Below are positions 19,379 to 24,789 of a stretch of 64,000 nt of DNA, in pieces; position 1 is the stretch's first letter, and every line of letters starts with the position of its first letter. The stretch lies in NCBI RefSeq assembly GCF_028389875.1, contig NC_084670.1, positions 13,177,383 to 13,241,382 of the forward strand, written 5' to 3'. Origin of the DNA: Rhea pennata. Lineage: Eukaryota; Chordata; Aves; Rheiformes; Rheidae. A program made the translations under genes and the position numbers. The notes under the pieces were generated by a model. That model was not told where the DNA came from, did no database searches, and saw only the letters and a list, made by a program, of their open reading frames with translations.

Positions 19379-19830
19379 CCTTCGGCCGAGCCTTGGGGCT
19401 GCGGGCGCCCGGCGCGCGCCGCCCCGGGGCCGGGCCGCCGAGGCGGTTAATGTGTAACCGGCGCCGCCGCCTTCCCCCCCGCGGCGCTGGGCTCCGCGCG
19501 CGGCCCCGCGAGGCAGCGCCCGGGCCCGGCTCCCGGCTGAGCGGCGGCTCCCTCCGGCCGAGGCGGTGGAGGCCGTGGGGCGGGCGGGCCTCGGCGCCGC
19601 GCTGGCTGCCTCCACGCTGCGGTGAGCTGAGCCGATCCTGCCCGGCCGGCCGGCCCGCGCTGCCGGCCTCCCGCGCCCGGCCCTGCAGCCTGTTTTTCTG
19701 CCGTGCAGCTTCCTGGAGCCCAATGGCTCCTGCCTGCATCCTCGGCGTCTGCAGCCTCCTCTGGAGCTGGGCGGCCGTGGCGGGACACCCTTGCAGCGTC
19801 GACAGCCAGGTAGGGGGCAAAGGAGGCTCT
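19379..19830 (+). promoter_or_regulatory. CpG island promoter and 5' UTR of C1orf210
   Basis: The sequence is very GC-rich with many CpGs (GGGCGCCCGGCGCGCGCCGC near 19399, CCCGCGGCGCTGGGCTCCGC near 19480). It leads directly into the ATG at 19723 of the signal-peptide exon. No TATA box is evident, as usual for island promoters. The transcription start cannot be placed from sequence alone. Confidence 0.6.
19723..19809 (+). other. C1orf210: C1orf210 exon 1: signal peptide and first LRRNT cysteine
   Basis: The exon has 29 codons. [20 protein letters not shown] is a good signal peptide with a likely cut after VAG or [11 protein letters not shown] then gives the first N-cap cysteine, and a GTAGGG donor follows. 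It splices in phase 0 to [11 protein letters not shown] 2.65 kb downstream, which rebuilds a normal LRR N-cap. That fit is the reason for linking two exons so far apart. An in-frame ATG at 19393 has no intervening stop but would bury the signal peptide. Confidence 0.78.
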
Positions 19831-22800: not shown

Positions 22801-24789
22801 CTTGAGGCTCTTTTCCACCTGGACCTGCAGAAGAATGCACTGATATCTATGGACACTTTAGTCCTGCAGCTGATGGAGGCAGTCCCACACGTCCAGCTTG
22901 AAGGGAACCCCTGGATCTGTGACTGTTCTACGTATCATTTGCAGCAGTGGCTCCAGCGTAGAAAAGGTGAGAGGATGAGGGTGGGGAATAGGCATCAGGG
23001 ACATTTCAGTTAGGAGTAATCCTAGATGTAGGAGTCATGTTTGATCCTTTTGTTCCAACCCCTTTGCAGGCTCTGAGGCTAGTCTCTAGGGATTTCTCAT
23101 GTCCCTGTTAAGAGATAGCAAATTGAAATGTAATATGTCAATTCTTTACTTGCAGTTACACTCAATAGCAAAGATTTCTAGGAATGACCCAGATAACCCT
23201 GTGAGAGTGCAGTTCATATGGTATCTGTGAATTTGTTACTTTCCAGTAAACAGCTGCCTAATCACAGTCACACATTTACACAGTTCTGCTTGTTGCTGAT
23301 AGTTCCTTGGTCGGGGATTTTTTTCTTTTGTTATGCATTACAGTGTGCTGAGGCCTGGCTAGGTGGGAGGGCAGCACCAGGAGCACTCTGCTCCACTTCT
23401 TATCACGCCAGGAGCAAGTAGAGAGCACTTTCTCTGAACTGGGGAGGGAGAGGATGAAACCTCCTTGTCCCACCTTAGGCTGTGTGTCTCCCAGCTGTGC
23501 AGGTCACCTGCGCATCGCCTCCAGAGCTGTGGGGGCAGGACATCTCATCTCTGGATTTCCAGGACCTGGGCTGCAAGAAAAAGCAGCGGTTTCCTCGGGC
23601 TGACAACATGACACTGCTGCTGATAACTACGACTCAGAACAACAGTAAGTTGTACAGCTACCGAGGTTGCAGTAAGGCGGTGCCCTCCTTCATTTTGTCA
23701 CCCCCTCGTGCAGGTCCCTACTGCACAGTTAAACCCCTCCTGCTCCCCTGCTGGCCCAGGGACTTGCACTACCCAGGCCACTCGTTAAGCAATGGTTCGA
23801 TAGGGAGGATATCTGTCACTTGGAGGTGTTTACTGGTTGTCCAGGCTCTGTGCAGGTTGGCAGAAGATGCGGAAGCCATACTGCTGCACTGAACACACAA
23901 TTCATGGTTGTAGGCACCAGTATCAAACAGCTGTCCAGCAGTTTTCTCCTTAGTGTTCGTGCACCCTCTCCAGTTCAGTTATGTGGTACTAGCTCTTGGT
24001 GAAGGGCATTTACATTGCTTTCAGTGAAAGCAATCTAGTGTTTGCTGCCTAAGGCAGGCATGCACGTAGCAAGCTACTGAGAAGAACTTGGTATGCTGCA
24101 GACTTGCACCCTGGCTCACCCAGCAGTAACTGGTTTATAGAGCCATATTGAAATAAAACAGCAACAGCTACAATACTTCTGAAAAACTGTTCTTAAATAG
24201 CTTCTCAGTTTTTTTTCTCTCAAACTTGCAATGAGTGGGCAGAAGTCTTTGCACAGAAACACAGTGGTGGGTCTGCCAAATGCACTCAGGAGGCTGTTGC
24301 TGCTAGTCCCACATTGGCAAGGTGAGGGGCATATGATGCCCTGACATGCAATGTCCTGACATGTGATGTCTTGGCATATGGTGTCTGACATGCAGTGCTC
24401 TGACATGCCTTTTCTGTGCTGCAGCCACCACACTACCTGCAGGAAAAGGAGGAAGGAGCTGGCCGTACCTAGTGGGCTTCCTGGTTGCAGCCATCAGCAT
24501 CTCCATTCTGGTAGCACTGGCTGCCAAGTGCAAGCTCTTCCGCAAGAACTTTGCTAGCTACCGCCACCGGCCACTGCCCGATACCAGCTCAATTGGAGGC
24601 AGCCAGATGGGGGAGGGCATCGGCTGGGACAGAGACACCTCCAGTCGAGGGGACAGTGGAAGTCACCACATGCCTTCTACAGCTGGCTTGCACACTGAGG
24701 ACGACGATGGCTTCATTGAGGACAACTACATTCAGCCGAGTGAGCAGCTGCAAGAGGAAGAAGAAAGGGAGTCGCACCTCTCCATCTGA
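19723..24789 (+). CDS. C1orf210: C1orf210/TEMP orthologue with LRR ectodomain
   Basis: The four coding exons are 19723-19809, 22459-22966, 23495-23644 and 24425-24789 (phases 0, 1 and 1), giving 369 residues. The C-terminal third identifies it: a membrane span (about 263-282) ending ALAAKCK, then [11 protein letters not shown], then [14 protein letters not shown] (340-353), all shared with human C1orf210, the type III endosome membrane protein TEMP. The human protein is only 113 residues with no signal peptide. Here a signal peptide (1-20), an LRR N-cap (Cys24, Cys34), about five LRRs (50-160) and an LRR C-cap (Cys183, 185, 204, 225) precede the span. The predicted protein is therefore a type I membrane protein with a luminal or extracellular LRR domain, similar in plan to LRRC19. 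Ligand and function are unknown. The acidic tail may be a sorting signal (inference). Confidence 0.88.
22459..22966 (+). other. C1orf210: C1orf210 exon 2: leucine-rich repeats
   Basis: The acceptor TTTTTTCCAG precedes GGATGGGCC; the donor is AAAAG|GTGAGA. Repeat cores in order are [36 protein letters not shown] and LDLQKNALI, followed by the C-cap opening [13 protein letters not shown]-glycosylation sequons occur at NIT and NLS. There are no stops or frameshifts across 508 bp, so the ectodomain appears to be under coding constraint. Confidence 0.88.
23495..23644 (+). other. C1orf210: C1orf210 exon 3: LRR C-terminal cap
   Basis: Between acceptor CTCCCAG and donor ACA|GTAAGT lie 50 codons that finish the [19 protein letters not shown], then FQDLGC. 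The two cysteines pair with the CDC of exon 2 in the canonical C-cap. An NMT sequon follows. The exon starts at phase 1 and ends at phase 1. Confidence 0.85.
24330..24403. repeat. Five-unit ~15-bp minisatellite beside the last acceptor of C1orf210
   Basis: Units of 14-15 bp follow each other: CATATGATGCCCTGA, CATGCAATGTCCTGA, CATGTGATGTCTTGG, CATATGGTGTCTGA and CATGCAGTGCTCTGA. The array ends 21 bp before the AG of the membrane-span exon, so it covers the likely branch-point zone. Confidence 0.85.
24425..24789 (+). other. C1orf210: C1orf210 exon 4: membrane span and conserved tail
   Basis: The exon begins after GTGCTGCAG and encodes [18 protein letters not shown], the membrane helix and the cytoplasmic tail to the TGA at 24787-24789. 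This exon corresponds to nearly the whole mammalian protein, whose short N-terminus aligns with the region just before the helix. The tail is Ser-rich, then acidic ([12 protein letters not shown]). Confidence 0.92.

Follow-up and report, generated by a model that had tools for sequence, protein, structure and literature searches.

We report that the TEMP gene of Rhea pennata is predicted to encode a type I LRR receptor and, with a probability of roughly four in five, we regard it as the ortholog of mammalian C1orf210 and an ohnolog of LRRC19, the TEMP ectodomain having been lost in mammals. LRRC19 is known as a single gene and as a receptor of gut and kidney. Mouse TEMP has been described as a type III protein of 111 aa with an N-glycosylation site and a localisation to early/recycling endosomes, demonstrated in HeLa cells (PMC3901140). 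The same paper, from 2012, reported orthologs in mammals only and no related family, and it printed a 15-residue motif that is common to TEMP and Lrrc19. Our literature search found no published proposal that TEMP and LRRC19 are paralogs; a long bird TEMP model may already be present in public annotations. Human TEMP, uncharacterised and described as mammal-only without relatives, would thus gain both a family and an origin, and the LRRC19 receptor family would be doubled.

The analysed stretch, here called the window, comprises 64,000 nt of contig NC_084670.1, and all coordinates for TEMP and its neighbours are positions within it. Four exons between 19723 and 24789 on the + strand, with splicing deduced from the DNA alone, make up a single 369-aa open reading frame whose stop codon ends exactly at 24789, and the three introns are GT-AG throughout. 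When alternative junctions were tried in narrow ranges around the splice sites of the initial annotation, six models were open (362-371 aa), differing from the 369-aa model by junction shifts of at most 14 nt. Exon 1 (19723..19809, +; aa 1-29) holds the start codon, the signal peptide and the first N-cap cysteine, C24, and ends at a phase-0 donor, GTAGGG. Exon 2 (22459..22966, +; aa 30-198 and the first base of codon 199) holds the second N-cap cysteine (C34), five LRRs and the start of the LRR C-cap (C183, C185) before a phase-1 donor; searched against its own genome, the DNA of this exon has a single match, which is itself. The remainder of the C-cap (C204, C225) and a glycosylatable stalk are encoded by exon 3 (23495..23644, +; aa 199-248 and the first base of codon 249), which also has a phase-1 donor. 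Exon 4 (24425..24789, +) completes codon 249 and runs through aa 369 to the stop; it encodes the juxtamembrane stalk, the membrane helix and the TEMP cytoplasmic tail, and is followed by ATTAAA (25281..25286, +) as a possible polyadenylation signal. The four in-frame exons claimed in the initial annotation were therefore confirmed, with GT-AG introns and with signal peptide, LRRs, C-cap, helix and TEMP tail in one frame. The claimed LRR N-cap stood in part: its two cysteines are present, while the cap is of a reduced form without a match to Pfam LRRNT.

A CpG-island-like stretch (19251..19750; GC 0.75, CpG observed/expected 0.93) surrounds the start codon, and no such stretch was detected at exons 2-4, the ratios ranging from 0.07 to 0.34 between 21.5 and 25.2 kb. 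Large open frames on both strands at 18.1-20.2 kb overlap the CpG-rich stretch.

The Pfam search of the 369-aa protein returned LRR_8 above cut-off (E 7.1e-24) and LRR19-TM (E 2.1e-10; 41.1 bits against a cut-off of 27), and exon 4 alone matched LRR19-TM at E 2.7e-11 (44 bits). LRRCT scored 17.2 bits, under its cut-off of 20, and neither LRRNT nor the TIR domain by which a Toll-like receptor would be recognised was found. Searching the PDB gave 230 distinct sequences at E <= 0.001; judging by their names, the best 60 of the 230 are LRR proteins, with IGFALS at the top (131 bits). The five LxxLxLxxNxL repeats start at residues 50, 75, 99, 123 and 147. Single-sequence AlphaFold2 gave no usable model of the LRR exon (mean pLDDT 38.6). 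Residues 1-21 and 260-287 are hydrophobic; the latter (24457..24540, +), with Kyte-Doolittle windows above 1.6, mark the membrane helix region, the helix probably ending near Cys284, with exact ends that are predicted. Six sequons are found, at residues 49, 79, 130, 236, 247 and 248. The receptor architecture observed in this predicted protein is far beyond chance, and the claim of a type I LRR membrane protein was borne out as a prediction by the 369-aa frame with its signal peptide, LRRs and helix.

The cytoplasmic tail comprises 86 residues, is acidic and carries a DGFIEDxYI motif. Within it, aa 340-354 (24697..24741, +) agree with the motif published for mammalian TEMP at 14 of 15 positions. 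Simple TRAF2 and TRAF6 motifs were looked for in the tail without a match, and neither YxxPhi nor [DE]xxxL[LI] sorting signals were found there; the tail does contain a single YxxP and, in three places, the looser pattern [DE]xxx[LI]. LRRC19-like signalling by TEMP is therefore unproven. A weak bacterial match to the tail (L003; 36% over ~64 residues), one of 80 pattern stretches, was dismissed as chance, and the pattern search of viral contigs (18 pattern stretches) gave no related locus.

The gene neighbourhood points to the same identity. TIE1 (3..7275, -), for which kinase, FN3 and EGF-like exons were tested and the remainder of the kinase is in L002, is transcribed divergently from TEMP; its PDB match to Tie-1 (5n06) scored 93.9 bits vs 35.8 for Tie-2. 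A frame at 12630-12962 resembles, by eye only, the N-terminal part of TIE1, and has no Pfam match. On the other side lies TMEM125 (33413..34105, -; PF15109, E 6.5e-52), followed by a frame holding one exon of CFAP57 (62298..62618, -), 90 residues of which match CFAP57 chains in the PDB (E 1.6e-15); judged by eye, the CFAP57 gene probably extends over about 43-63 kb. TMEM125 and TIE1 are the nearest identified genes on either side of TEMP, and no further gene was identified between them in the subset of frames searched. Human C1orf210 is, we assume, likewise placed between TMEM125 and TIE1. Together, the tail motif and these two neighbours bear out the assignment to C1orf210/TEMP.

The genome (1.27 Gb) was searched for LRR19-TM and 11 of 11 first-look candidates were scored. 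Three matches were obtained at E <= 10, two of which were over the cut-off, namely TEMP (40.2 bits) and C61:6706764-6707081 (154.7 bits); the cut-off was passed in none of 14 control genomes. The second locus is LRRC19, with a modelled protein of 377 aa (LRR19-TM E 5e-45). Its gene model was built in this analysis, with human LRRC19 as a help in choosing the exon borders; for exon 1 there were eight signal-like candidates, and the one adopted was preferred in part because it has a GTAAGT donor. The LRRC19 exons measure 84, 511, 213 and 326 nt vs 87, 508, 150 and 365 nt in TEMP, and the intron phases are 0, 1, 1 in both genes, the intron positions differing by 1, 3 and 9 columns in gappy parts of the alignment. 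Retesting the borders with all nearby GT/AG sites gave phases 0, 1, 1 in 12 of 12 open models, and the top-scoring models, of 377 and 385 aa, had equal scores. BLASTP aligned the two proteins with 107/375 identical residues (E 9e-32 for this single comparison); identity is 34% over 160 aa in the LRR exon and 31% over 98 aa in the tail exon. The LRRC19 repeats start at 49, 75, 99, 123 and 147, which is a displacement of one residue, in the first repeat, relative to TEMP.

Since LRRC19, which is one gene, is organised in this genome into four exons on the same plan and with the same phases, it is scarcely credible that exons 1-3 of the present model are an LRR gene of their own and exon 4 alone is TEMP, as might be thought given that mammalian TEMP corresponds to the helix-and-tail part only. 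Up to their donors, exons 1-3 moreover contain neither a stop nor a second hydrophobic anchor, and they join exon 4 in frame; the exon plan of LRRC19 thus led us to reject an origin of the exons from different genes. It is also very unlikely that TEMP was originally short and acquired an LRR ectodomain in this lineage, by fusion or through gene conversion from LRRC19. TEMP outside mammals is sampled here in one genome, which leaves some room for such a gain. From end to end, however, the gene has the exon arrangement and intron phases of LRRC19, yet identity in the LRR exon is just 34%, so that a recent copy is excluded and an independent assembly of the same four-exon gene is unlikely. Both paralogs have the ectodomain, and its loss on the mammalian side is therefore the simpler direction. 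The claim of an LRRC19-like ancestor is in turn supported because LRRC19 of this genome shares the exon plan and phases and has a TIE gene nearby.

That TIE gene is TEK, on the + strand and divergent from LRRC19 on the - strand, with its first match ~56 kb from the LRRC19 5' end. Coiled-coil frames of another probable gene separate the two, and what they matched was a single coiled-coil chain belonging to an unrelated protein; IFT74, which we take to overlap LRRC19 in human, was sought among these frames and was not confirmed. TEMP and LRRC19 are thus each linked, in the same orientation, to one member of the TIE1/TEK pair, listed as 2R ohnologs in PMC6389290. Because of this linkage together with the shared phases, repeats and ~30% identity, TEMP and LRRC19 most probably descend as ohnologs from one LRR receptor, the short mammalian TEMP being derived. 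Should they instead be old paralogs from a small-scale duplication, the TIE linkage would be coincidental; the probable third gene between LRRC19 and TEK would fit this, whereas the probability that a random place falls within 56 kb of TEK, given TEMP beside TIE1, is ~9e-5 (an after-the-fact estimate for this genome) and the divergent orientation matches as well, which makes the coincidence improbable.

From the end of the LRRs to the membrane helix the frame contains a single ATG, Met237 (23608..23610, +), in the stalk exon. It has A at -3, and a start there would yield a protein of 133 aa whose sequons precede the helix, like the TEMP N-glycosylation site; a short form might thus be made in this species as well. 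We consider it doubtful, at about the level of a small-scale duplication, that such a product, from Met237 or from an unseen promoter near exon 3, is the main one and the long form minor or relict. In the LRR exon the frame has stayed open since the split from LRRC19, and the spacing of the repeats, the cysteines of the caps and usable splice sites have all been preserved, as they would not be in a relict, and the CpG-island-like stretch lies at exon 1 with none at exons 2-4. Furthermore, a transcript without exon 2 would join phase 0 to phase 1 and lose the frame, and the LRRs therefore cannot simply be spliced out.

In the preferred reading, an ancestral gene beside an ancestral TIE gene would have been duplicated in 2R. 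The signal peptide would bring the five LRRs and their caps into the lumen or outside, the glycosylated stalk and one helix would anchor the receptor, and the 86-residue tail would lie in the cytosol. On the mammalian side the exons for the signal peptide and the LRRs would have been lost, translation would now begin in or near the former stalk, and tail and helix would persist as a ligand-less type III protein. This suggests that mammalian TEMP is what remains of an old receptor after the loss of its ectodomain, and the retained tail would make it a sharp example of such a loss. By analogy with published work on its relatives, the long form may cycle between the surface and early/recycling endosomes via its tail. 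Published work on LRRC19 describes a gut epithelial receptor with TRAF2/6 and NF-kB signalling and reported flagellin binding (PMC4742566; PMC10763354), one of these studies giving TRAF6 and not TRAF2 as involved (PMC10763354). Long TEMP may, by the same analogy, bind ligands and sample them on epithelia, e.g. kidney and gut, as reported for LRRC19 with bacteria. The ligands of bacterial origin described for LRRC19 offer a test of the bird ectodomain. The tail motif common to both paralogs should bind a shared trafficking or signalling partner, which makes its function testable. More speculatively, and in our view rather unlikely, TEMP and LRRC19 might form a pair of epithelial pattern-recognition receptors roughly of vertebrate age, each linked to a TIE gene, in which mammalian tail-only TEMP may compete with LRRC19 for the adaptor of their common DGFIEDxYI tail and in this way regulate its intact sister, sauropsids still using both as receptors.

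Compared with known systems, TEMP shares typical extracellular LRRs with Toll-like receptors, IGFALS, LRRC15, LGR4 and RTN4R, whose tails are unlike its own and which presumably have far more repeats. With mammalian TEMP it shares the tail motif (14/15) and sequons just outside the helix, and we take human C1orf210 to have a matching helix and ASYRHRPLP segment and ~24 fewer mid-tail residues. In contrast, mouse TEMP has 111 aa vs 369 aa with a signal peptide and an LRR ectodomain, and mammalian TEMP is type III where the present protein is predicted to be type I. The likeness to LRRC19 covers the signal peptide, five equally spaced LRRs, two-cysteine N-cap, four-cysteine C-cap, stalk, helix and a tail ending in DGFIEDxYI, as well as four exons with phases 0, 1, 1 and divergence from a nearby TIE gene. 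TEMP differs in being only 29-31% identical, in its shorter stalk (exon 3 of 150 vs 213 nt), in having 6 sequons vs 10, in its LRR19-TM score (41 vs 153 bits) and in a tail in which no TRAF-like motif was found, whereas LRRC19 of this genome has PEEDGF. For mouse Lrrc19, PMC2235866 gives 364 aa with SS, LRRNT, 6LRR, LRRCT1 and TM; TEMP, with two cysteines for the N-cap and a sub-threshold LRRCT, follows this plan in the same order and at nearly the same length, 369 vs 364 aa.

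The TEMP (C1orf210) gene covers positions 19723-24789 on the + strand of the window, which is C8:13177383-13241382. A splice-site trial, in which the sites were varied only in narrow ranges around the junctions of the initial annotation, gave six open models of 362-371 aa. The plainest has exons at 19723-19809, 22459-22966, 23495-23644 and 24425-24789 (all +) with intron phases 0, 1 and 1, and the four in-frame exons proposed earlier are borne out by its open frame of 369 aa and by GT-AG borders at every intron. Used as a DNA query, exon 2 had a single match, itself, in the 1.27 Gb genome (180 contigs). 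A CpG-island-like stretch is present at exon 1, and the CpG profile revealed none at exons 2-4. In and near the CpG-rich stretch preceding TEMP (18144-20190), both strands carry several overlapping open frames as long as 361 aa, which are probably composition artefacts. By eye, short imperfect repeats of the GACATGCAATGTCCTGACATGTGATGTC type were seen immediately 5' of the exon 4 acceptor (24330-24410). Further downstream, a pentanucleotide-like pyrimidine/purine microsatellite (37257-37638) generates artificial open frames rich in Lys/Glu/Arg and in Phe/Leu/Ser.

The 369-aa protein scored over the Pfam cut-offs for LRR_8 (E 7.1e-24) and LRR19-TM (PF15176; E 2.1e-10, and 2.7e-11 with exon 4 alone), while LRRCT reached 17.2 bits, below its cut-off of 20 bits. 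A PDB search gave 230 distinct sequences at E ≤ 0.001, and the best 60 of these are, judged by name, LRR proteins. Five LxxLxLxxNxL repeats, a C-cap with four cysteines (residues 183, 185, 204 and 225), six sequons and hydrophobic stretches at residues 1-21 and 260-287 were identified. The feature list of the initial annotation, from signal peptide to conserved tail, is correct overall, except that the N-cap is reduced, having two cysteines (residues 24 and 34) and no Pfam LRRNT match.

The gene is the C1orf210 ortholog. Its tail is identical at 14 of 15 positions to the published mammalian TEMP motif, which is fully conserved among the mammals aligned (PMC3901140). The local alignment score against human TEMP was 225, and the best of 300 shuffles reached 46. 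Between the SYRHRPLP and DDDGFIED blocks (24577-24699) the tail is ~24 residues longer than in human TEMP and is Ser- and Gly-rich. With respect to the neighbours, TIE1 (tested over 3-7275, - strand) shows FN3, kinase and EGF-like exons, the last recognised by their match to TEK. Its FN3 exon matched Tie-1 (PDB 5n06) at 93.9 bits and Tie-2 at 35.8 bits; two titin chains outscore 5n06, as is usual for FN3 domains. TMEM125 maps to 33413-34105 (-) with CFAP57 beyond it, in agreement with the human order, CFAP57-TMEM125-C1orf210-TIE1.

A search of the whole genome with the LRR19-TM profile, in which all 11 first-look candidates were scored, returned three matches at E ≤ 10. Two were over the cut-off: TEMP in the window (40.2 bits) and LRRC19 on contig C61 (6706764-6707081, - strand; 154.7 bits); the third (E 8.65) was rejected as noise. 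None of 14 control genomes had a match over the cut-off. Reading 120 kb around the C61 match gave an LRRC19 model of 377 aa with exons of 84, 511, 213 and 326 nt and the same intron phases, 0, 1 and 1, as TEMP, the introns of the two genes lying 1, 3 and 9 alignment columns apart. The exon borders were first chosen partly by human LRRC19, and all nearby GT/AG sites were then tried; the phases were 0, 1 and 1 in 12/12 open models, with equal best scores for 377 and 385 aa. The putative exon 1 was picked among eight signal-like candidates. The two proteins share 108 of 344 aligned residues (107/375 by BLASTP, E 9e-32), and both have a two-cysteine N-cap and a four-cysteine C-cap. Their repeats start at residues 49, 75, 99, 123 and 147 in LRRC19 and at 50, 75, 99, 123 and 147 in TEMP.

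With TIE1 frames as queries, TEK was found within the same 120 kb (C61 ~6767075-6781363, +), one kinase exon matching Tie-2 at 126 bits with 64/65 residues covered. The 5' end of LRRC19 (- strand) is at 6710839, and the first TEK match follows ~56 kb away; TIE1 and TEMP are divergent in the window, like TEK and LRRC19. The interval from LRRC19 to TEK holds coiled-coil open frames (~6717214-6733330, +) that are probably exons of another gene, possibly IFT74 to judge from the human order; a search with these frames did not confirm it. The chance of such a link at a random place, estimated post hoc, is ~9e-5. TIE1 and TEK are listed as 2R ohnologs (PMC6389290). Judging from this one genome, ohnology is also the most likely relation between TEMP and LRRC19.

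Since all four exons are present in both genes, their common ancestor most likely had four exons and carried LRRs, and the 111-aa mouse TEMP is most likely the derived form. The earlier suggestion that ancestral TEMP resembled LRRC19 agrees with the four exons and phases 0, 1 and 1 of LRRC19 in the same genome. Given the intron phases, skipping of exon 2 breaks the frame, and the short form would therefore need a new start. From the LRRs to the helix, the frame in this species has a single ATG, Met237, which lies in the stalk exon; a start like this would keep sequons before the helix, as in the mammalian TEMP N-terminus (PMC3901140).

The TEMP paper describes orthologs in mammals only and no related family, and notes the tail motif in Lrrc19 (PMC3901140). 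A survey of extracellular LRR proteins gives Lrrc19 as 364 aa with SS, LRRNT, 6LRR, LRRCT1 and TM, and its main text mentions neither C1orf nor TIE1 (PMC2235866). Among the titles and abstract openings listed from the accessible literature on C1orf210, TEMP and LRRC19, which excludes most subscription journals, none puts forward TEMP-LRRC19 paralogy. An avian gene named C1orf210 is already annotated, being listed among RNA-seq candidates for sex differentiation in chicken embryos together with names we label as kidney- and epithelium-type (PMC10959104), and gene databases may already hold a long avian model.

Mouse TEMP in HeLa cells localises to the cell surface and to early/recycling endosomes, its overexpression makes endosomes collect at the cell edge, and its transcript peaks in stomach, gut and kidney (PMC3901140). 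LRRC19 is described as a gut epithelial receptor acting via TRAF2/6 and NF-kB (PMC4742566, whose references include a kidney study), and it is reported to bind a flagellin (KD 35 uM) in a study where TRAF6 but not TRAF2 was involved (PMC10763354). A long list of colon-cancer genes includes both human C1orf210 and human LRRC19 (PMC7522359). Because of these published mouse TEMP, LRRC19 and gene-list data, bird TEMP is predicted to act as an LRR receptor of epithelia whose tail is endosomal; for the long form, any ligand, signalling role or trafficking route is putative. Of the TRAF and classic sorting motifs tried, none was found in the TEMP tail except for loose [DE]xxx[LI] matches at three places and a single YxxP. 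It differs from the LRRC19 tail (C61:6706764-6707086) in lacking the proline of PEEDGF, which in LRRC19 matches a simple TRAF6 pattern and directly precedes the shared FIEDxYI.
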